Shown here: in pieces, positions 22,483-31,319 of the stretch
How positions within the stretch are numbered: the first letter of the stretch is position 1
Layout: each line of letters opens with the position of its first letter
NCBI GenBank assembly: GCA_902388495.1
Contig: CABMPP010000007.1
Span: 124,001 to 188,000, forward strand
DNA from: an uncultured Bacteroides sp.
Lineage (GTDB): Bacteria; Bacteroidota; Bacteroidia; Bacteroidales; Bacteroidaceae
DNA: 64,000 bases
Direction: 5' to 3'
Notes under the pieces: generated by a model
Told to the model about the DNA's origin: nothing
Database searches by the model: none
Seen by the model: only the letters and a program-made list of their open reading frames with translations
Program-made: the position numbers and the translations under genes

Positions 22483-22509
22483 TGCGGGTTCAAGTCCCGC
22501 TTCGAGTAC
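22483..22509 (+). pseudogene. Orphan 3' fragment of tRNA-Leu(TAA)
   Basis: 27 bases identical to the T-arm and acceptor 3' side of the intact tRNA-Leu at 22679 (shared part 22736-22762), with no matching 5' half. It lies immediately after argH, upstream of the tRNA-Gly promoter. It is most simply a scar of an earlier tRNA duplication, deletion or element insertion. Confidence 0.75.
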
Positions 22510-22678: not shown

Positions 22679-22762
22679 GCTCGAATGGTGGAATGGTAGA
22701 CACGAAGGACTTAAAATCCTTTGGCCATTGCGGCTGTGCGGGTTCAAGTCCCGCTTCGAGTA
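22679..22762 (+). tRNA. tRNA-Leu (anticodon TAA), integration site of the island
   Basis: 84-nt class II tRNA. Acceptor GCTCGAA pairs with TTCGAGT, anticodon loop CTTAAAA gives TAA, a long variable arm follows, then T-arm GCGGGTTCAAGTCCCGC. CCA is not encoded. The gene stays intact at the left end of the island because the element restores its 3' half. Its terminator (stem 22769-22799) is part of the duplicated att sequence. Confidence 0.93.
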
Positions 22763-22812
22763 CTGTTTAAAGCTCTGTAAATCAAGTGTTTACGGGGCTT
22801 TATTCTTTTATG
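22707..22812 (+). repeat. attL: tRNA-Leu 3' half plus terminator
   Basis: Matches 30855-30960 over 106 bases: identical for the first 75 (22707-22781), a 7-base differing block that is the terminator loop, then identical for 24 more. It spans the anticodon arm to the tRNA terminator. Confidence 0.9.
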
Positions 22813-22867
22813 AAACTTCCTTGCTTTCTTCATTAAATGATACAGATTCTACCGGATTTGGGCTACT

Positions 22868-22903
22868 GAGTTAAACCGAGAGTTAAACCAAGAGTTAAAC
22901 CGA
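22868..22903 (+). repeat. Three 12-bp direct repeats before int (putative integrase arm sites)
   Basis: GAGTTAAACC plus 2 variable bases, repeated exactly every 12 bp at 22868, 22880 and 22892, ending 7 bp before the integrase start. The same unit recurs near attR, as expected of arm-type binding sites. Confidence 0.7.
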
Positions 22904-22910
22904 AATTGTA

Positions 22911-24116
22911 ATGAAAGCTACTGTTAATGTATTGTGTTACAGGTCTAAAACTCTTAGTAATGGTGAACATCCAATCATGTTACGCGTGTGTAAAGGCGGT
23001 AAGAAGAAGTATATCGGTCTTGGAATCTCTGTAAATCCCAAATATTGGGACTTTGAGAAGAACAAGCCTAAACGTAATTGCCCTAATCGGGAACAGATAA
23101 TCAAGGTTATTAATGAGCAGGAACAGAAGTATTCAGAGCAGATACTTGAATTTTCTACGGAGCAACGGGAATATTCTCCTACTACTCTGGTTGAAGCAGT
23201 TGCCCCGATACGTAAGAGTAAAACTGTTAATGATATGTTTGAAGAGTATATAACTCAACTTAAAGATGAAGGCAGGTTGGGGTATGCGTTATCTGTGCAG
23301 CAAGTCCGTAATTCTCTGTTAAAATTCAAGGGACATTCGGATGTGTTTTTCTCTGAAATAGATGTGAACTGGCTGAAAACGTATGAATCGTGGTTGAGAT
23401 GCTGCAAGTTGGAAGATAATACGATTGGCATCCGTTTCAGAACGCTACGAGCAGTCTATAATTTGGCTCTGACTGAGGGGGTGGTAAAGGCTGATTGTTA
23501 TCCATTCAAGAAGTATAAGGTGTCTAAATTGCATAAAGAGACTGCCAAGCGCGCCATAACAAAAGAGCAGGTGAAGCAGGTTATTGAATATGATGTGTCA
23601 GGAGCACGTTTCTATAAGAGGTTGGCAGTTGATATGTTTACGTTCTCTTATTTGATGGGCGGTATCAACTTTACTGATATGGCACTTCTTACTGATAAGA
23701 ACTTTGAAGGTGAGCGTTTAGTGTATGTTCGTCAGAAAACGAAGAAGTTGATAATGTTACCATTGCAGGAGAAGGCTATGGAAATAGCGGGCCGTTATCG
23801 CTCTCCACAGTGTAAATATATATTTCCGATACTGGATAATAGAGAGCGAACTCCACGACAAATAAGGAATCGAATATATGACGTATTAGCCAATGTGAAT
23901 GGACATTTGGAAGATATTGGGAAGGAATTGGGGATTGAGTTGAAGATTTCCAGTTATGTTGCTCGTCATTCTTATGCTACGGTCTTGAAACGTTCGGGAG
24001 TTTCGACTTCTGTAATCAGTGAATCTTTGGGGCATAGTTCTGAACGGGTAACACAGATTTACTTGGATAGTTTTGAGAATAAGCAACTTGATGATGCTAT
24101 GAAGCACTTACTTTAA
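22911..24116 (+). CDS. int: Tyrosine recombinase / integrase of the island
   Basis: 401-aa integrase with an N-terminal arm-binding region (about residues 1-100), a core-binding SAM-like domain (about 105-200) and a C-terminal catalytic domain. Catalytic Lys is in RQKTKKLIML, box II Arg in SYVARHSY (near residue 351), His in LGHSS and the nucleophile in QIYLDSF (near residue 384). The usual first Arg is not visible: the equivalent SYLMGGINF has no Arg, as in the CTnDOT-type integrases where Arg I is absent. It reads inward from attL and is followed by a terminator. It should catalyse integration at tRNA-Leu. Confidence 0.93.
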   Translation: MKATVNVLCYRSKTLSNGEHPIMLRVCKGGKKKYIGLGISVNPKYWDFEKNKPKRNCPNREQIIKVINEQEQKYSEQILEFSTEQREYSPTTLVEAVAPIRKSKTVNDMFEEYITQLKDEGRLGYALSVQQVRNSLLKFKGHSDVFFSEIDVNWLKTYESWLRCCKLEDNTIGIRFRTLRAVYNLALTEGVVKADCYPFKKYKVSKLHKETAKRAITKEQVKQVIEYDVSGARFYKRLAVDMFTFSYLMGGINFTDMALLTDKNFEGERLVYVRQKTKKLIMLPLQEKAMEIAGRYRSPQCKYIFPILDNRERTPRQIRNRIYDVLANVNGHLEDIGKELGIELKISSYVARHSYATVLKRSGVSTSVISESLGHSSERVTQIYLDSFENKQLDDAMKHLL

Positions 24117-24121
24117 TTTAT

Positions 24122-24158
24122 AATGCCACTCTGTTGTATAATGGGGTGGCATTTCTTA
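24122..24158 (+). terminator. Terminator after int
   Basis: AATGCCACTC pairs with GGGTGGCATT (one G-U) around a 12-nt loop, followed by a short T-rich tail. Confidence 0.7.
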
Positions 24159-24242
24159 CTGAAATCCATTTGCTGATATTAGCGGATTAATACATATATT
24201 AACTGTTGCTTCAGGATTATCGGTATTTCTTGGCGCTCCCTA

Positions 24243-24411
24243 TTGTATGTAACAAAAATGTACCTATCTTTGTACCGTTGCAACTCCGCAACGAGAGCTC
24301 TTTAACTTGATGTACTGTATTAGCGTGACAACCATAATATTCCGTCTCGATTGCGATTGCAATACTTGGCGGTGATTCTGGTTATTTTAAATTTTAAAAC
24401 AATTAAAATTT
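24243..24411 (+). promoter_or_regulatory. Promoter and structured leader of the 294-aa island gene
   Basis: TTG (24243-24245), 19 bp, TATCTTTG (24265-24272), a good Bacteroides promoter. The leader of about 130 nt starts with a hairpin CGTTGC/GCAACG (24276-24293) and then GAGAGCTCTTTAAC. It is long for a housekeeping gene and could hold post-transcriptional control. Confidence 0.6.
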
Positions 24412-25296
24412 ATGAAGAATCGGAATCTAAAGACAGAGGAGAATCCTCTGTTTGTAATGACCGTCACTATCATGGCTGACGGTAAAGAGCAGGAAATAAT
24501 TCCTGTATTCTCAGAGTTCTCAATGGGACGCAAGTCATTTGGGAATGATAGTATTCACAATGCATTGGATAGAAGTAAGATTCTTCCTACTGTCTTTTCC
24601 TTTGTTGATGTGAAGACATTGGAGGGAGAGCAATATCCGCTGTTTGACTATGCGGGTAATCAGATACCTGATGATTTCGACTGCGAAATACCCCTCATGC
24701 TGTACTTGGATAAGGCTGATAACTTCCAGTTGTTGGGAGAAGTTGAAGAGCCACTAAATGCGGTTATTGTGGATGAATGCAAGTCGTTTGCAGATGCTTA
24801 TCAAAGGGTGGCGACTTCCGCCTATTACTCTAGAACCCCGAACAAAATAGAGTGGCTCGGTTGGGGAGGTATAGTCACTAACGATGATATACTGATTGCA
24901 ATCAGAGGGTTCTGTAACCTATATAAGGTGTCCGGCACTGTTGCCCAGAAATATTTCGGTATTCAGGTGTCAAACTCACTGCTACATGCCAAAGCACTTG
25001 GTATAAACGATTCCCTAATTACCCCTAAACGCACTCCTACGCAAGCCGTTGCACTTTACAAAGCTGCGGTAGAGGCTTTCGGAGTGAAGATTGCAGGTCA
25101 GGGATATTCGGTCAACGCTATTAATTACTGTATTAACAACAGCAGTTATGGCCTAGTTTTAGCAGCCTTAGCTGAAATTAAAGCAGAGGAGAAACTTCAA
25201 TTAGAGCATACTAAATGCGGCGAAAAAACAGCATGTATTCAGGCGCTCATGCTTGAAGTCATAAGAACCTTGAAAGAGGAAGCGGAGATTGCATAG
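24412..25296 (+). CDS. Unrecognised 294-aa island protein
   Basis: I do not recognise a family. No signal peptide or membrane segment; it appears soluble and mixed alpha/beta. The first 110 residues look beta-rich (VMTVTIMADGKEQEIIPVF, YPLFDYAGNQIPDDFD). The middle reads like helices that could bind DNA or protein (GWGGIVTNDDILIAIRGFCNLYKVSGTVAQKYFGI) and a C-terminal helix is charged. It has its own strong promoter and long leader and ends at a bidirectional-looking terminator shared with the helicase-like gene. Its placement beside the integrase suggests a role in element control or replication, which is inference only. Confidence 0.75.
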   Translation: MKNRNLKTEENPLFVMTVTIMADGKEQEIIPVFSEFSMGRKSFGNDSIHNALDRSKILPTVFSFVDVKTLEGEQYPLFDYAGNQIPDDFDCEIPLMLYLDKADNFQLLGEVEEPLNAVIVDECKSFADAYQRVATSAYYSRTPNKIEWLGWGGIVTNDDILIAIRGFCNLYKVSGTVAQKYFGIQVSNSLLHAKALGINDSLITPKRTPTQAVALYKAAVEAFGVKIAGQGYSVNAINYCINNSSYGLVLAALAEIKAEEKLQLEHTKCGEKTACIQALMLEVIRTLKEEAEIA

Positions 25297-25344
25297 AGAA
25301 ATTAACCCCGTCTGATTGATACAGATTCACAAGTAAAGAATTCG

Positions 25345-25379
25345 CCCCTGCCAGAGTTATCTAGCAGGGGTTTCTTTTT
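25345..25379 (+). terminator. Terminator between the 294-aa gene and the helicase-like gene
   Basis: Perfect 7-bp stem (CCCCTGC / GCAGGGG), then TTTCTTTTT; it touches the stop of the convergent gene. Confidence 0.8.
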
Positions 25380-27195
25380 ATCTAATCTCCCACCCGTTTC
25401 TACGACCTTCAGGAGTTACCACTTTCTGACCTGACAAAGAATCGGGAAAGTATTCAAGTATATCGGTCGCATGGGCTGTTTTCTTGAATCGCAATTTATC
25501 ATAGATAGATTGCAGTAATGCTTTCAATGCAGGGTTCGTTATCCGTTCCCCTCTCTTGATGACTTTACCAAGTTCATAGAGAATACGGCTCTTTGAGTTC
25601 ATTATGCTTATCTCATTTTTAAGGTTACACTCCTTATAACTTAACGCCTTGATTCTGGAACTTCCCAGAGTATTGTAGTAATACTCCAATTCAGGGTATT
25701 TGGATTGCAAGGTGTTTGCATATACGTCCAGTATCAAATTACCCTTATCCTTGTACTCACAATAATATTTCATCCTCTCCGAGAAATCCTCCTTCTTAAT
25801 CAGGTGCTTCAACTGTTCCTGATAGGATATATACTCTTGGTTTACAGAAGTATCAAAGTGATTGTCATCCAACTGCTTCCTGATGATGATTCCATTCTGA
25901 TAATTATGTTTCTGTAAATCGAAGCAGAACTGTTCATTTACGTAAGCTAGTCTATTGAAAACAAATTGCTGGGAATGTTCATCATACATAGTGTATGAAT
26001 CCTGATAACGTAATGACATTGGCATTTTGTTCCAGTCCTTGATGCGTTTCTGCTTCAACGGCTCTGCTTCATTGTTGTTCGATTTCACTTCCATATTGGT
26101 AACGGCAACCTTACCCTCTAATGCTTGGTAAAACTCTATGCCCGAAATTTCCTCTACGCTGGTATTATATATGAAGGTAAGATATTTCCTGAATGGATTG
26201 GAATCCAATCTTTGCCGACCTGCAATCTGAACAAGGTCGGTGGATATGTCTATGGAAGTGTTAATTCGGGTACAATCACTAATAACGAACGATGCTGCGC
26301 TTTCAGAATAGAAATCGCAACCCGCATAGGCAGTGGAAGTACAAAAGGTAAACTGTTTATGCGGTTCACCCTTCAACGGTATTCTCCCTCTGCTGAAACC
26401 TGCTCCAATCTTCTTGATTAGTTTGTCGTTGTCATCGGTACTTCCTACAATGATATTTACGTCCTCTGGTCTTAATTCCGTATGCTTGATGATGTTTAAG
26501 ATATTGGTTACGCTATTCAGGAAAATTACGCACTCTATAGATTGATGTACTTTATTGTCAATCACTATTGAAGGATAATTTTTTGCCTGATACATTCGCA
26601 CAATGTTGATGGCTATATTAATAGGCTTGGGATTCTTATATCTTATTAACTGTACTGTCTCTATCTCCTTCCATTGCAATTCATAATAAGGTATATCATT
26701 GAAAAAATCTATCTGCTCTAGATACTTGTCAAGAATTGGAGTTGCAGAAAGATATGTAATGTATGGGAAGGCTTTCAAGTGATTCAGAAAATGAAACTCC
26801 GTCTCTGATTTGAAGCTACTATCACTCAACAAACATTGAAACTCATCTACTACCACTCTCCACTCCGATTTATCTTTGATACATCCAATCAACTTATACA
26901 TGGAATCATAAGAAACCAAAATTTTAGGAATATCAGTATCCTGTATATATCTGTCAATCTCATCTTGATATACACCGCCAACAACAAGTAAGGAGTTTGA
27001 ATATTGGGCGTGCTTGTTCTTTAGGAGTTCGTTTCTAGGACTGCATATAATGGTCTTATGATTATCTATAAGTGCTACTGTGGTTGCTCCACAACCGGGT
27101 ATCTTTTTGTTGCATACTCCATTTGGAAGTTCAAATTCATCTAGGTCTGTGAGGTACTTGATACCTTCTGGAATAGAAATCAATTCTCTTCTCAT
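25378..27195 (-). CDS. SF2 helicase-like protein with atypical P-loop (possible replication protein)
   Basis: 605-aa protein with the layout of a superfamily 2 helicase: IPGCGATTVAL at the Walker A position near residue 31, VVVDEFQCLL (Walker B, DEFQ) near 115, YLSATPI (motif III) near 152 and VQIAGRQRLDSN (motif VI) near 325. The C-terminal 250 residues are helical and not recognised. The P-loop lacks the usual Lys (GCGATT in place of GxGKT). The motif spacing resembles the herpes-type origin-binding helicases found in some phages and mobile elements, so a role in element replication is plausible but unproven. Transcribed against the rest of the island. Confidence 0.65.
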   Translation of the reverse strand: MRRELISIPEGIKYLTDLDEFELPNGVCNKKIPGCGATTVALIDNHKTIICSPRNELLKNKHAQYSNSLLVVGGVYQDEIDRYIQDTDIPKILVSYDSMYKLIGCIKDKSEWRVVVDEFQCLLSDSSFKSETEFHFLNHLKAFPYITYLSATPILDKYLEQIDFFNDIPYYELQWKEIETVQLIRYKNPKPINIAINIVRMYQAKNYPSIVIDNKVHQSIECVIFLNSVTNILNIIKHTELRPEDVNIIVGSTDDNDKLIKKIGAGFSRGRIPLKGEPHKQFTFCTSTAYAGCDFYSESAASFVISDCTRINTSIDISTDLVQIAGRQRLDSNPFRKYLTFIYNTSVEEISGIEFYQALEGKVAVTNMEVKSNNNEAEPLKQKRIKDWNKMPMSLRYQDSYTMYDEHSQQFVFNRLAYVNEQFCFDLQKHNYQNGIIIRKQLDDNHFDTSVNQEYISYQEQLKHLIKKEDFSERMKYYCEYKDKGNLILDVYANTLQSKYPELEYYYNTLGSSRIKALSYKECNLKNEISIMNSKSRILYELGKVIKRGERITNPALKALLQSIYDKLRFKKTAHATDILEYFPDSLSGQKVVTPEGRRNGWEIR

Positions 27196-27316
27196 TCAAT
27201 TTAAAATTAGATAAGTGTTAATGAAGAAACTATCTGAAATGTGGTGTCCAGTTTTTTGCTAGATTCAATCTATATACTAAGGGAGTCAAGGTCAATAAAT
27301 TAGACAAGTGGGAGAA

Positions 27317-27340
27317 TAATAAAACCAGACTGGAATCTGG
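27317..27340 (-). terminator. Terminator of the small-gene pair, lying in the helicase-gene leader
   Basis: On the minus strand CCAGA and TCTGG pair around 6 nt and are followed by TTTTATTATT. Confidence 0.55.
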
Positions 27341-27443
27341 CTCTATTACTTCCTTCGATTAATACATATCTAGTGATTATTGCAATAATTGAGCGATTTA
27401 TCCTCTTGAATGATACTCTCTCTACTTCCCTTACTTGATTATG

Positions 27444-27474
27444 CAAAGATAGTAAACTTTCCTTACTTTAAAGA
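27444..27474 (-). promoter_or_regulatory. Possible promoter upstream of the helicase-like gene
   Basis: TATCTTTG on the minus strand (27444-27451) fits the -7 consensus; the -33 position (around 27471-27474) is weak. The transcript would have a leader of about 240 nt crossing the hairpin at 27317-27340. The rest of 27196-27516 is AT-rich with no ORF I can support. Confidence 0.45.
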
Positions 27475-27516
27475 ATGAACATATATTGTATTGGAAACTT
27501 TGAGCTTAGAGGCATC

Positions 27517-27738
27517 TTAACCTTGATTCTTTTTCTCTGATTGAACTCCGTTCCCCTTACGTGGGGCTAATTTAGCGTTCCCCTTCTTGGAACTGGGCTT
27601 ACGGAATGGTACGTCTTTACGGGGTATCAATTTAGGGCTGTCTATTACATATTGGTGGTTTTCGTGAACTATCTCGTGAATTACGTTATCTGTAACTATG
27701 GTTGTCGCTTCGGGGAATACTGGAATTTCTATTCGCAT
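27517..27738 (-). CDS. Small basic protein of the island, unknown function
   Basis: A 73-aa protein with no recognisable family. The first half is mixed (MRIEIPVFPEATTIVTDNVIHEIVHENHQ) and the C-terminal 40 residues are strongly basic (LIPRKDVPFRKPSSKKGNAKLAPRKGN), suggesting nucleic-acid contact. Its start lies inside the end of the upstream 56-aa gene (10-nt overlap), which supports it being translated by coupling. No good ribosome-binding site is visible, usual in Bacteroides. Confidence 0.5.
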   Translation of the reverse strand: MRIEIPVFPEATTIVTDNVIHEIVHENHQYVIDSPKLIPRKDVPFRKPSSKKGNAKLAPRKGNGVQSEKKNQG

Positions 27739-27899
27739 GGTAATTTTGTGTAATAAGTCTTTCTAACGTGGTTAATCTGTTTACGTATCTTGGTGAACCC
27801 CGATAACCGTGCCCATACTCCAATATGAACCCGATTATCAGATACACCCGCTTTTATAGCTATATCTCTCAATTCTTCATAACTAAACATTTCATTCAT
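27729..27899 (-). CDS. 56-aa small protein, possible helix-turn-helix
   Basis: Translated by hand: starts MNEMFSYEELRDIAIKAG and ends YYTKLPCE. The pattern YEELRDIAIKAGVSDNR..IGVWARLSGF looks like a compact helix-turn-helix followed by a basic tail (TKIRKQINHVRK). Similar short proteins with a 'YEELR...AI..G' start occur near Bacteroides mobile elements in my recollection, but I cannot name a family. An excisionase-like role would fit its size and place. It overlaps the next gene by 10 nt. Confidence 0.5.
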   Translation of the reverse strand: MNEMFSYEELRDIAIKAGVSDNRVHIGVWARLSGFTKIRKQINHVRKTYYTKLPCE

Positions 27900-28476
27900 T
27901 ATCATAGGCGATTGATTAATGGCAAGTAATCTGTGTATTATGGCAGAGTTATCTACGGGCAGCTATATCTATCAAATGAAGTCGGTAATAGGATAGCTTA
28001 TAAGCAAGTTGATAAGTGACTGCAATTATATATCCGATTTGAAAATGGAAGTTCGATTTGCTGATACCTTATAAATACGGTAACGGTAAACTGCATTATA
28101 TATTTGAATTACAAGCCTAAGAGACTGACATTACTAACTTCCCTTACCCACCTTAAAGATACTACATATTTGGAACTCCGTAAAATGAAACGGATATAAC
28201 TTGTAAGATTGTGGCGCATATCAGAGCCACTTCATTATTAATGGCATCCAGTATCGCAGATTGGAATATACAGGAAAGAGACACGCATAATATAACGGGT
28301 ACTTCATTACAGATACCCCCATCTATCCGATTCAAAGTGGAAGTATATATAAAGCCAATTCCTTATAAATAGTCAGAGCCTCATCCATAAATACGTCACG
28401 TAAACGTGACTTGACATCCTCTCATGACCCCTCCAGTGGGGTGATATAAGAAACAACATTTAAAACAGTTCAATTT
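27900..28476. other. Gene-poor repeat-bearing stretch of the island (candidate origin or regulatory region)
   Basis: No ORF I can support. It contains an imperfect direct repeat (28031-28077 and 28324-28371), both starting TATCCGATT and ending CCTTATAAATA. It also has hairpins: GTGGC/GCCAC (28210-28230), GGGTA/TACCC (28297-28320), GTCACG-TAAA-CGTGAC (28395-28410) and ACCCC/GGGGT near 28427-28442. Such density of repeats beside helicase and recombinase genes suggests an origin or control region; this is inference. Confidence 0.4.
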
Positions 28477-28650
28477 ATGGAAGGGCAAAGATTACTCCGA
28501 GTTAGTGAGGTAAAACTCACTTATCAACCTAAAGTTAAGGCATCCGAACGCTACTACATAGCGCATAGTGAGGACACTTACAAATTATTGAAGGAACATT
28601 GTTACGATGAAAGCACTCTCCTTACGGATGAAGGTACGTTAAACCGTTAA
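28477..28650 (+). CDS. 57-aa ORF matching only the N-terminus of Bacteroides RadC-like proteins
   Basis: Translated by hand: starts MEGQRLLRVSEVKLTYQPKV, continues KASERYYIAHSEDTYKLLKE and stops after DEGTLNR. The segment VSEVKLTYQPKVKASER...S.EDTYKLLKE is the conserved N-terminal lead of the JAB-domain RadC-like proteins on Bacteroides mobile elements, but the JAB metalloprotease domain (HxHPSG) is missing altogether. Either a truncated remnant or a stand-alone small protein reusing this domain; the clean ORF and following co-directional gene leave the second open. Confidence 0.5.
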   Translation: MEGQRLLRVSEVKLTYQPKVKASERYYIAHSEDTYKLLKEHCYDESTLLTDEGTLNR

Positions 28651-28661
28651 TTCATGGCATT

Positions 28662-28802
28662 ATGAAAGATGTATTCTACTTTATACTCTCGCTTGCAGCA
28701 GCATTTGCTATCGTATTACTGTGTCCGTTATTTGCGGTCGCATTAATAATTTGGTGGATTATATGGATAGGTAAGGAAGTCTCGAAATATGACGGACTTT
28801 AG
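28662..28802 (+). CDS. 46-aa small membrane protein
   Basis: Translated by hand: begins MKDVFYFILSLAAAFAIVLL and ends IGKEVSKYDGL. It is almost entirely hydrophobic from residue 5 to 36, enough for one long or two short membrane helices, with a short charged C-terminus. It follows the RadC-like ORF by 11 bp on the same strand, so the two are probably co-transcribed. Function unknown; holin-like, toxin-like or membrane-anchor roles cannot be told apart. Confidence 0.5.
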   Translation: MKDVFYFILSLAAAFAIVLLCPLFAVALIIWWIIWIGKEVSKYDGL

Positions 28803-28873
28803 TTATTAATCAGAGTGTTACATGAATTGAACGTTCGTTTAGCTCGTGTAACCACTCTTAAAATATGTAAACG

Positions 28874-29536
28874 ATGAAGACATACATAGCGTATTTACGC
28901 CAATCAACCATGAAGCAGGAAAGAAGCGGTCTTGGAGTTGAGGCTCAAAGAGAGATTATTCATAACTTCATTAAAGAGGGAGTTATCCTACATGAATTTG
29001 TCGAGACTGAAAGCGGTAAGAGGACGGATAGACCTAAATTGCAAGAAGCGTTGATAATGTGCCGTAAGACCAATTCTATTCTTATTGTGGCGAAGTTAGA
29101 CCGATTGAGCCGTAATGTGGCGTTCACTTCCAAGTTATTGGAGAGTGATGTGGAGATTACCTTTTGTGATTTCCCGCAAGCTAACCGCTTGATACTCCAC
29201 ATTATCAGTAGTATCGCTGAATATGAAGCAGGGTTAATCAGTCAACGCACAAGGCAGTCATTGCAAGCTAAGAAGGCACGAGGGATGAAACTGGGTAAAT
29301 CGGATAACTTGATGAACAAGCATAAAGAGGCTATCGCTAATAGTAACCGTACCAATAGATTGAAAGCGGATAGTAACCCCAATAATATGCGGGCAATCGC
29401 TTTACTACGCTCGTTATCAATGGAAGGTAAGACCTTATCCGAAATGGCAGACCTACTCAACGCACAAGGTTTTGTTACTTCACGAGGTTGCAAGTTTCAG
29501 AAGGTACAAGTAAGCAGGTTACTTGCTAAACTCTGA
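28874..29536 (+). CDS. Serine recombinase (resolvase/invertase family)
   Basis: 220-aa small serine recombinase. The catalytic Ser is in AYLRQSTMKQ (residue 11), followed by GLGVEAQREII, the Arg-rich active-site motif AKLDRLSRNVAF and the long E-helix (LHIISSIAEYEAGLISQRTRQSLQAKKARG). A C-terminal helix-turn-helix binds DNA (KTLSEMADLLNAQGFVTSRGCKFQKVQVSRLL). The family resolves dimers or inverts segments. With a tyrosine integrase already present, a resolvase or inversion role inside the element, or a copy-control role, is more likely than integration. Confidence 0.9.
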   Translation: MKTYIAYLRQSTMKQERSGLGVEAQREIIHNFIKEGVILHEFVETESGKRTDRPKLQEALIMCRKTNSILIVAKLDRLSRNVAFTSKLLESDVEITFCDFPQANRLILHIISSIAEYEAGLISQRTRQSLQAKKARGMKLGKSDNLMNKHKEAIANSNRTNRLKADSNPNNMRAIALLRSLSMEGKTLSEMADLLNAQGFVTSRGCKFQKVQVSRLLAKL

Positions 29537-29544
29537 TTACTTTA

Positions 29545-29603
29545 GTTGGGAGGAAATCTTTAAAATTCTGTATATATAGACCGAGTTACAATTTCCTCCT
29601 AAC
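29545..29603. other. Hairpin after the serine recombinase gene
   Basis: 13-bp stem (29545-29557 with 29591-29603, one G-U) around a 33-nt AT-rich loop; no T-run follows, so it is not a classical terminator. Confidence 0.5.
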
Positions 29604-29653
29604 CTTGATTTATCAACGGGAGACTATTCTCAACTATTAATAAACAATAGTTC

Positions 29654-29683
29654 TTGTCAATCAAACGTAATTTAGTAACTTTG
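29654..29683 (+). promoter_or_regulatory. Promoter with no downstream ORF
   Basis: TTG (29654-29656), 19 bp, TAACTTTG (29676-29683), a close match to the Bacteroides consensus. The sequence downstream has no convincing ORF, so the product may be an RNA. Confidence 0.65.
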
Positions 29684-29689
29684 CAGCAA

Positions 29690-29950
29690 TTCCAAGCCTC
29701 TAAAGAGATAGGGGACTGGAAGGACTTATTAGTTAACGAAGAGCGTTTGACATATTATCCTGCATTGGAATCTCGACAATTTCATTCTTCAAGGATAATA
29801 GACAAGAACGCTCACGTCAATGCTATATACCCGCTTTACTAAGTGGACTATATAACGTTTGGCGTGGGCTATTGTTTATTACTTGAAGAAGGGCAGTCGA
29901 GAGCCTCAATGCAGTAATATTCAATAGTTCCCACGCCTCTCTATTTATTA
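29690..29950 (+). ncRNA. Candidate structured RNA of the island
   Basis: Starts just after the promoter above. Its 3' part folds into a long interrupted hairpin (29861-29937): GGCGTGGG/CCCACGCC, a 2-nt bulge, CTATTG/CAATAG, a symmetric TT/TT loop, TATTACT/AGTAATA, and a 29-nt apical part. A pyrimidine-rich tail (TCTCTATTTATT) follows. The paired blocks total 21 bp. Boundaries are estimates. No reverse transcriptase is nearby, which argues against a retron. Confidence 0.4.
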
Positions 29951-30036
29951 ACAGCTAACATTCGGGAACAAGTTAGCGTAATATATTGGATAAGAAACGG
30001 ATATATAGTTTACTACTTACAACTACTTTATTAATG

Positions 30037-30073
30037 ATATGTAAGCCTATTAATAGGATGCTGCCTTACATAT
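30037..30073. other. Inverted repeat upstream of the small barrel gene
   Basis: 9-bp arms (ATATGTAAG at 30037, CTTACATAT at 30065) enclosing a second palindrome CCTATTAATAGG. It lies about 50 bp before the barrel start and may be an operator or an RNA hairpin. Confidence 0.5.
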
Positions 30074-30123
30074 ATTTCACGTTGCAACCCTAAGCAGCAG
30101 GGATGCACTTATATTATTAACTT

Positions 30124-30627
30124 ATGAAGACATTAAGATTATTAGCGGTATTAGTTATCGCAATGACTGCATCTATATGCAGTGCACAGAACGGGTATAG
30201 AGGTATGATTGAAGGAGGACGAACATTCCACCTTGATGAGACAGCATTACACGCCACCGAGTTTTCTACCACACACGGGTATCAATTCAATCCCTATTTG
30301 TTTGTCGGTGCAGGATTAGGATTTCACTTTACATCTTCGGATGCAGAAATGACTTATATGCCGTTGTATTTGGATGTGAAAGCCAATCTTATGCAGACTA
30401 AGGTTGCTCCATTCATTGACGTAAAGGCAGGCTACTCCGTACTGGATGCTAAGGGAGTATATCTAAGTCCGAGTGTGGGAGTTAACTATAATTTCTATAA
30501 ATGCTTATCTGTATATCTGAAAGTGGGTTACACCTATCAGAAAGTGGATAGCCCTATATATGCTAACAGTGATAAAGAAATCAGCAATATAGGCGGTATC
30601 ACAGCTAAAATCGGATTTGAGTTTTAA
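30124..30627 (+). CDS. Small outer-membrane beta-barrel protein (island cargo)
   Basis: 167-aa exported protein: signal peptide MKTLRLLAVLVIAMTASICSAQ, then about eight predicted amphipathic strands (YLFVGAGLGFHFTSS, LYLDVKANL, PFIDVKAGYSVLD, VYLSPSVGVNYNF, LSVYLKVGYTYQKV) ending in GGITAKIGFEF with a C-terminal Phe, the outer-membrane insertion signal. It resembles small OmpA/OmpW-like eight-stranded barrels of Bacteroidetes. A surface role such as altering phage reception or host fitness is possible but speculative. It is the last island gene before attR and ends at a hairpin terminator. Confidence 0.75.
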   Translation: MKTLRLLAVLVIAMTASICSAQNGYRGMIEGGRTFHLDETALHATEFSTTHGYQFNPYLFVGAGLGFHFTSSDAEMTYMPLYLDVKANLMQTKVAPFIDVKAGYSVLDAKGVYLSPSVGVNYNFYKCLSVYLKVGYTYQKVDSPIYANSDKEISNIGGITAKIGFEF

Positions 30628-30641
30628 TATGAGCAGATATA

Positions 30642-30675
30642 AGGCGGCATTGAAGTAATTCAGTGTCGCTTTATT
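30642..30675 (+). terminator. Terminator of the barrel gene
   Basis: 13-bp stem with G-U pairs (AGGCGGCATTGAA with TTCAGTGTCGCTT), loop GTAA, followed by TTATT. Confidence 0.7.
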
Positions 30676-30715
30676 GGCTATATAATGAATAAAAATTAAA
30701 TGTTGAATATTTCTT

Positions 30716-30752
30716 GGGTTAAGTCTCAGAGTTAAACCAATAGTTAAACCAA
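30716..30752 (+). repeat. Right-end arm-type repeats
   Basis: GAGTTAAACC at 30729 and TAGTTAAACC at 30741, 12 bp apart as at the left end, preceded by a degenerate copy GGGTTAAGTC at 30716. About 100 bp inside attR. Confidence 0.65.
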
Positions 30753-30854
30753 GATAGAATCAGAGTGTAAGATATAGAAGTGTACATTGCATAAATCGCA
30801 GATTTATAGCTTTATAATAGGCTGTTGCAAAGCGAGAATGGTGGAATGTGTGGG

Positions 30855-30960
30855 GGACTTAAAATCCTTTGGCCATTGCGGCTGTGCGGGTTCAAGTCCC
30901 GCTTCGAGTACTGTTTAAAGCTCTGTAAACGACAAGTTTACGGGGCTTTATTCTTTTATG
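30855..30960 (+). repeat. attR: duplicated tRNA-Leu 3' half and terminator
   Basis: The 106-bp partner of attL. Bases 30834-30848 also match the 5' part of tRNA-Leu (GAATGGTGGAATG), so the site looks like a damaged tRNA copy, but the D-arm and acceptor are broken. Confidence 0.9.
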
Positions 30961-31022: not shown

Positions 31023-31099
31023 TTATTACTGCAATGATTTCAGAAATCATTGCAGTAATAATTTCAGAGATCATTGTAGCAATGATTTCAGAAATCATT
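31023..31099. repeat. Tandem palindromes beyond attR
   Basis: A perfect palindrome with 19-bp arms around one base (31023-31061), followed by two more units of the same core (AATTTCAGAGATCATT, AATGATTTCAGAAATCATT), giving three units at a 24-bp period. 30961-31319 otherwise holds no supported gene; a pair of TGTAAACC repeats 12 bp apart (31159, 31171) resembles the integrase arm sites. Confidence 0.8.
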
Positions 31100-31319
31100 C
31101 AAAATACTCCATAGCGCTTCTAAATTATGCTCATTTTAGATATGATTTGCAGCACTCGTGTAAACCAAGATGTAAACCGGTAAAGCTATCAATCCAAAAG
31201 AACTTCTGTACAGTTGCAAGATCCGGGGTATATTCAGACTTCAAATTGTCCTTTATACCGTAAACCTTTCTTCTCTTCGTATTGTTGAAATTCCAACTAT
31301 TAACTTAAACAAGAATGAT

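Follow-up and report, generated by a model that had tools for sequence, protein, structure and literature searches.

What has settled behind the tRNA-Leu gene of an uncultured Bacteroides sp., and what is the structured RNA that it carries? The question is raised by a stretch of 64,000 nucleotides from contig CABMPP010000007.1, here called the window, in which an earlier sequence-only reading had noticed a compact island with integrase and helicase genes. Our answer, which we consider rather probable, joins two things: an integrated mobile element some 8.15 kb long and, inside it, a bistable RNA leader that precedes a gene for an exported protein. The encounters of gut Bacteroidota with phages, diet and the host are governed by surface proteins. 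A leader RNA that is uncatalogued, common to chromosomal and mobile surface-protein genes and strongly covarying would be a directly testable layer of control. Its dozens of copies, with one fold and differing pairing sequences, amount to a natural experiment. With the islands comes a family of compact elements that have a helicase of replication type.

The island is an 8.15-kb insert at tRNA-Leu, bounded by two 106-bp direct repeats that are 95% identical and spaced by 8148 bases. Here the sequence-only reading was right, also in calling the tRNA at the left end intact (ARAGORN and Rfam agree). The right repeat lacks a proper tRNA 5' half; ARAGORN calls a tRNA there at 30832, Rfam at its gathering score does not. 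Both ends carry direct repeats of a tRNA 3' end and an integrase lies adjacent, as is typical of genomic islands. The tyrosine integrase and the neighbouring 12-bp arm repeats described in that reading are likewise found (Table 1). The arm motif, GTTAAACC, has another copy inside the island at 28638 and occurs eight times in the window, both strands taken together.

A comparison of strains for an empty tRNA-Leu site had been suggested. The DNA of the right flank matched 91 of 149 genomes, and the best eight were searched with the stretch from argH to tRNA-Leu. In four of these eight (G067, G090, G095, G151) tRNA-Leu runs directly into the window's right flank, i.e., the target site is empty. 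In G090, G151 and G095 the outer-membrane gene comes next; in G067 a thioredoxin gene, 274 bases on, precedes it. An island shared by all genomes, with no empty allele, would have spoken against mobility; this is not what was seen. That leaves four relatives. In G073, about 6.6 kb of unrelated genes separate tRNA-Leu from the same outer-membrane flank (L198, G073:C1:412300-421500); this stretch has no match to the integrase, the 294-aa protein or the helicase, and no second tRNA-Leu tail was found in the part examined. G051 and G100 have other DNA after tRNA-Leu, again with no match to the three proteins in the 1500 and 551 bases examined, respectively. The contig of G086 stops 27 bases past tRNA-Leu. 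The exact tRNA-Leu tail beside tRNA-Gly is single in all eight relatives over the stretch examined, versus three copies in the window.

The sequence-only reading had not recognised this assembly of genes. That the assembly is singular was not borne out. Integrase, 294-aa protein and helicase recur as a module, which other Bacteroidales have next to tRNA-Lys and tRNA-Phe, with some parts exchanged. Relatives of the helicase are abundant in gut metagenomes (2892 matches among 7997 scored); among the best 120 of these, most are about 62% identical and many lie on contigs of 5.6-5.9 kb. One faecal contig of 5.2 kb (L001) has integrase, a 293-aa protein and helicase in the order seen in the window. 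In genomes, 15 loci with the helicase family were found. Integrase relatives of 47-53% identity accompany the helicase in L001 and L010-L015, and tRNA-Lys or tRNA-Phe lies just beyond the integrase in L010, L011, L012, L013 and L015. The 294-aa gene is present in some helicase loci and was not found in others; L006, L007 and L008 keep it together with the helicase, without a close relative of the window's integrase. Repeats of tRNA ends bound L010 (55 bp), L015 (52 bp, 98%) and L009 (60 bp, 95%); none were found for L008, L011 and L012, and one of 13 bp for L013. The helicase is intact in 12 of the 15 loci. G002 is the genome of L007; of 148 genomes sampled from its genus, 24 have the helicase (E 1e-20) and seven the 294-aa protein (E 1e-10). 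To the backbone of integrase, 294-aa protein and SF2 helicase, fuller relatives add DUF3871 (E 1.5e-145), RadC/JAB (E 9.6e-41), a small catalytic-domain tyrosine recombinase (E 9.5e-21; one example each) or a serine recombinase, the RNA and exported cargo. In one further locus with the same helicase (L020:12034-13851), a large protein that by eye looks like a serine recombinase replaces the tyrosine integrase.

We read the island as a mobile element because an integrase-bearing insert lies between duplicated tRNA-Leu 3' ends, some relatives have the site empty and the backbone recurs. It is a hitchhiker integrated at a tRNA, of a kind that recurs, and some of its parts are unusual. Its life cycle might be as follows. 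The integrase would excise the island as a circle, which the helicase and the ParB-like 294-aa protein would maintain or copy. The small recombinase might resolve multimers; the slot filled by two unrelated enzymes may serve this purpose. Spread would depend on a helper, which is likely to be needed: the nine open reading frames (ORFs) scanned with Pfam, PHROGs, NCBIfam and PADLOC contain no relaxase, coupling protein, capsid or terminase family, although a novel relaxase family would escape such a scan. The earlier view of a tRNA-integrated mobile element devoid of recognisable transfer or virion genes is supported.

The helicase deserves a closer look. That it is SF2-like had been claimed before. 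Motifs seen by eye and the fold of the model speak for it, and on these grounds the 605-aa protein qualifies as an SF2 helicase; the Pfam DEAD match is weak (E 0.0043) and stays below the family cut-off. Against the Protein Data Bank the model had 472 matches at E <= 0.001, those listed being mainly SF2-type. Foldseek also matched it to the origin-binding protein of HSV-1 (9hgj, E 3.8e-8). Many unrelated SF2-type proteins, however, score alike, and therefore the match shows SF2, not an origin-binder. A role in replication has indirect support from the fusion of the helicase to a BT4734-like domain in a faecal relative (E 2.1e-12) and from distant relatives in phages and Acinetobacter plasmids. 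The latter, including L005, are 21-25% identical and lie on 16 plasmid records of 35-149 kb. The 294-aa protein (AF2 pLDDT 79.8) matches ParB-family folds weakly.

Small integrated elements are known from other systems. NBU-type integrative mobilisable elements of Bacteroides are small, bear an integrase and sit at tRNA 3' ends, NBU1 in a tRNA-Leu gene. NBUs carry a mobilisation gene; unlike them, the island in the window has no recognised one among its nine ORFs. The PICMI phage satellites (PMC10803314) are small integrated islands with an integrase and a replication function and without capsid genes, and they depend on a helper phage. In that account they occupy fis in Vibrionaceae and carry alpA and a DUF3987/DUF5906 primase. 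The family described here, in contrast, uses tRNA sites in Bacteroidales and combines the RNA module with an SF2 helicase and a weakly ParB-like protein.

Might the element then be a minimalist-type phage satellite, packaged by a helper phage? We hold this for a real, if doubtful, possibility. The combination of integrase and replication-type genes with no structural genes fits the description of PICMIs in PMC10803314, and relatives occur in faecal records labelled 'Bacteriophage sp.', a label that is unverified. Yet neither AlpA nor a PICMI-type DUF3987/DUF5906 primase family is found by Pfam among the nine ORFs, the site is a tRNA and not fis, and there is no cos/pac or particle evidence. 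Moreover, the exact RNA motif occurs in only one viral contig. Mobilisation by an integrative and conjugative element (ICE) via an unrecognised oriT would fit equally well. In viral contigs, relatives of the helicase number zero by single-protein search and 20, all distant, by alignment search; the covariance model of the RNA (see below) has no match in these 20.

A dead leftover of a larger ICE or prophage, as opposed to an element in its own right, is an improbable reading of the island. RadC/JAB seems truncated in the window and DUF3871 was not seen there, while both are present in several relatives; stops break the helicase of L008, L009 and L011. The integrase, 294-aa protein, helicase and recombinase of the window are, however, open, the att repeats and arm sites are in place, and the small module turns up again next to other tRNAs and on the faecal contig of 5.2 kb (L001).

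The second part of our answer concerns the RNA. The sequence-only reading had named a promoter for a structured RNA only briefly, and a conserved, covarying stretch indeed aligns from 29684 onwards, with a promoter-like motif just before it. The RNA is about 265 nt long, intergenic between the serine recombinase and the barrel gene, and conserved as DNA. A DNA search retrieved it in three Bacteroidales plasmid records and two faecal phage records. In the sample of 148 Bacteroides-genus genomes it occurs in 52, at 95 places (some short), with several copies in some genomes. Sixty of these places and the window make up the alignment of 61 copies. All 61 have one orientation, and an invertible segment between the loops is unsupported.

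In the proposed structure, 95.6% of cells are paired; with slid partners the figure is 34-47%. Double-changed cells number 498 versus 140.5 in shuffles (0/500). The structure was derived from the same 61 sequences, so that this pairing count is self-favouring; a held-out test avoids the flaw for the loop pairs. In 24 held-out copies, the mean energy of the loop duplex is -28.9 kcal/mol with the own partner versus -11.1 kcal/mol with swapped ones, and the own partner is best in 23. In the 61-copy set (A2) it is best in 54. The longest Watson-Crick runs, own versus swapped, measure 6.92 versus 3.35 for a/a', 7.70 versus 3.53 for b/b' and 6.98 versus 4.69 for k/k'. The two hairpin loops are thus rewritten from copy to copy and stay complementary.

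A covariance model built without the loop pairs finds the RNA in six helicase loci outside the training set (L002, L008, L010, L011, L015, L018) and more weakly in L009. With strict filters it detects the RNA in 15 of 296 Bacteroidota genomes. It did not find the RNA in L001, L003, L005, L006, L012-L014, L016, L017, L019 and L021-L040, several of which are cut short. RNA and helicase are on opposite strands in the window and equally in L007, L008, L010, L011, L015, L018 and L020; L002 and the weak match in L009 deviate. In the genus sample, eight of 31 helicase matches have an RNA place within 10 kb, or ten if two weak RNA matches (E above 1e-4) are counted. The model gives the reverse strand a weak score as well (38.6 bits in the window), which the symmetry of the RNA leads one to expect.

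Is the RNA a known one? Rfam at gathering cut-offs yielded no match over it in the window and 26 further loci; in E-value mode, used on two stretches, only weak chance-level matches appeared, most of those in the window falling on the palindrome at 31023-31107. Literature searches limited to open-access texts listed no description of the RNA or of the island family. The RNA may, nevertheless, already be in print under another name. In PMC8040213, thousands of candidates including Bacteroidetes palindromes are reported, one near TonB, which could overlap with it; PMC7366714 reports 269 noncoding RNA candidates of B. thetaiotaomicron. FopS and GibS (PMC11697453) are likewise multicopy Bacteroides RNAs, and FopS has a canonical promoter. 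FopS, however, measures about 65-70 nt, whereas the present RNA has long-range pairing in its approximately 265 nt and stands mostly before genes of exported proteins. Identity with FopS was rejected for the wrong length.

The RNA can be folded in two ways. RNAalifold favours a single long hairpin, built with the loop pairs, which disrupts the terminator hairpin. The long hairpin is part of the minimum-free-energy (MFE) fold in 60 of the 61 copies and beats the terminator-type fold in 52. In the growing transcript of the window (one sequence, MFE only), the 5' hairpins form first and the long hairpin appears from about 215 nt, before the 3' half of the terminator is made. All 61 copies have a T-rich tail (four or more T among the following eight bases), so that a terminator-like hairpin with a T-tract lies upstream of the gene, as in attenuators. 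Both alternative folds have support; the loop pairing may instead be that of a kissing pseudoknot. Immediately before the RNA, TAnnTTTG, which we take to be a promoter motif, is seen in 57 of 61 copies; in the spacer between RNA and gene it occurs in four of 56 versus 3.5 by shuffling, i.e., at chance level.

Our preferred reading of the RNA is that of a bistable leader of envelope genes, which travels in the islands and occurs on chromosomes as well. A transcript would begin just before the RNA, and its 5' hairpins (P1 and alpha) would form early. One outcome would be that the beta hairpin with the T-tract halts transcription. In the other, the loop of alpha would pair with that of beta to build one long hairpin; the terminator would be broken and the polymerase would read into the gene of the exported protein. 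The loop sequences would be free to change, provided that both sides change together. A terminator and an antiterminator hairpin that exclude each other ahead of a gene recall attenuators and riboswitch-like leaders. In contrast to these, the RNA has no Rfam family match, its pairing segments are rewritten in each copy and no ligand domain was identified. We tentatively go one step further and propose, as an idea that has yet to become the probable one, a new class of self-contained RNA switch spread over Bacteroidota. It would be a double hairpin in which the two long loops find a new mutual pairing in each copy, and this would keep copies in one cell largely orthogonal. The switch would stand before surface-protein genes and pass from species to species in small tRNA islands, coupled there to an interchangeable recombinase.

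The neighbourhood of the RNA is informative. A same-strand ORF starts within 400 nt downstream in 60 of 66 copies. By a simple rule, 43 of these 60 are exported, versus 141 of 445 other ORFs; the split is 28 of 32 in the set with a recombinase and 15 of 28 in the rest. Distant copies precede genes of lipoproteins, SusC-like proteins, sigma factors or response regulators, and one copy next to clpB keeps the same neighbours in L165, L166, L168 and L169 (names by eye in both cases). Just upstream of about half of the distant copies (L172-L189), small divergent genes were seen that by eye look like helix-turn-helix proteins.

A free-standing small RNA acting in trans, with its own promoter and terminator and the downstream gene as a mere neighbour, is rather unlikely. 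Promoter motif and terminal T-tract would suit it, the hypervariable loops could serve as targeting segments, and some genomes have several copies. The same-strand genes so close by, enriched for exported proteins, argue against it, as do the lack of an excess of promoter motifs in the spacer and the fact that the variable loops pair mutually within one molecule.

In islands, the RNA often has a recombinase next to it, of tyrosine or serine type interchangeably. This slot, immediately upstream, holds a small tyrosine recombinase in 13 of 67 rows, a serine recombinase in 16 and neither in 38; DUF3871 lies 0.85-1.5 kb upstream in most of the recombinase-bearing rows. Bridge-RNA-like guide RNAs and attC-like folded DNA sites are models of how such a double hairpin could serve recombination. 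That it is a device of this type, by which the small recombinase swaps cargo, is very improbable: the shared slot, the structure kept while its sequence varies and the cargo differing among copies would fit, but most rows have neither recombinase, the copy near clpB has none, no repeated site lies between the cargo genes of L015 or L010, and the loops match each other, no search having been made for a matching DNA site elsewhere. An integron-like cassette array was rejected for the two loci tested, L010 having no repeats of at least 22 nt and L015 a single duplicated stretch. The latter, of 300 bp and duplicated at 89%, belongs to a run of nine same-strand genes, many of them exported-looking, that extends from the RNA to the end of the element (L015:400-7205).

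The features of the island are compiled in Table 1. The second recombinase, of serine type, and the small barrel of the sequence-only reading are corroborated by family matches. Among the tiny ORFs, those of 73 and 58 aa match no family above cut-off, and that of 46 aa encodes a hydrophobic protein. That of 57 aa is a probable truncated RadC/JAB gene (38% over 40 aa to the RadC protein of L015; E 2e-6, one-sequence search), and a 62-aa ORF over the RNA was rejected as a gene. Its tblastn match in L007 consists of three pieces in different frames; the match in L020 stays in one frame across 58 aa.

Table 1. Features of the island and its borders (positions in the window)
Feature	Position	Strand	Basis or remark
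tRNA-Leu(UAA), intact target gene, left junction	22679..22763	+	ARAGORN, Rfam
Left att repeat, 106 bp: tRNA 3' part and hairpin after it	22707..22812	+	repeat search
Arm-type GTTAAACC repeats, three, 12-bp spacing	22870..22901 (starts 22870, 22882, 22894)	+	
Tyrosine integrase, 401 aa	22911..24116	+	Pfam Phage_integrase E 4e-14, Arm-DNA-bind_5, Phage_int_SAM_5
294-aa protein, weakly ParB/KorB-like model	24412..25296	+	conserved module; AF2; fold matches
SF2-type helicase, 605 aa, convergent with 294-aa gene	25378..27195	-	motifs by eye, model fold
Small ORF, 73 aa	27517..27738	-	no family in libraries
Small ORF, 58 aa	27729..27905	-	no family above cut-off
57-aa ORF, probable truncated RadC/JAB gene	28477..28650	+	BLASTP to L015 RadC
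Hydrophobic 46-aa protein	28662..28802	+	similar-looking 47-aa ORF in L008 island, by eye
Small serine recombinase, 220 aa, slot immediately upstream of RNA	28874..29536	+	Pfam Resolvase E 6.5e-26
Promoter-like motif TAnnTTTG just upstream of RNA	29676..29683	+	motif scan
Conserved structured RNA ending in T-rich tract	29684..29950	+	ends as aligned, not mapped; probably bistable
Exported beta-barrel protein, 167 aa, cargo downstream of RNA	30124..30627	+	Pfam OMP_b-brl E 1.5e-6
Arm-type GTTAAACC repeats, two, near right end	30731..30750 (starts 30731, 30743)	+	
Right att repeat, 106 bp: tRNA 3' part and hairpin after it	30855..30960	+	repeat search

Some minor observations concern the surroundings of the island. 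The third of the exact tRNA-Leu tails in the window, 27 bp long, lies at 22483-22509, between argH and tRNA-Gly, where none of the eight relatives has an exact copy; it is possibly the scar of an earlier insertion. Just beyond the right repeat, the palindrome mentioned above is large, near-perfect and composed of 12-bp units; the weak Rfam matches that it draws are to microRNAs. Two further arm-like repeats, TAAACC, follow at 31161-31179, beyond the right att repeat, and are perhaps the remnant of another element.

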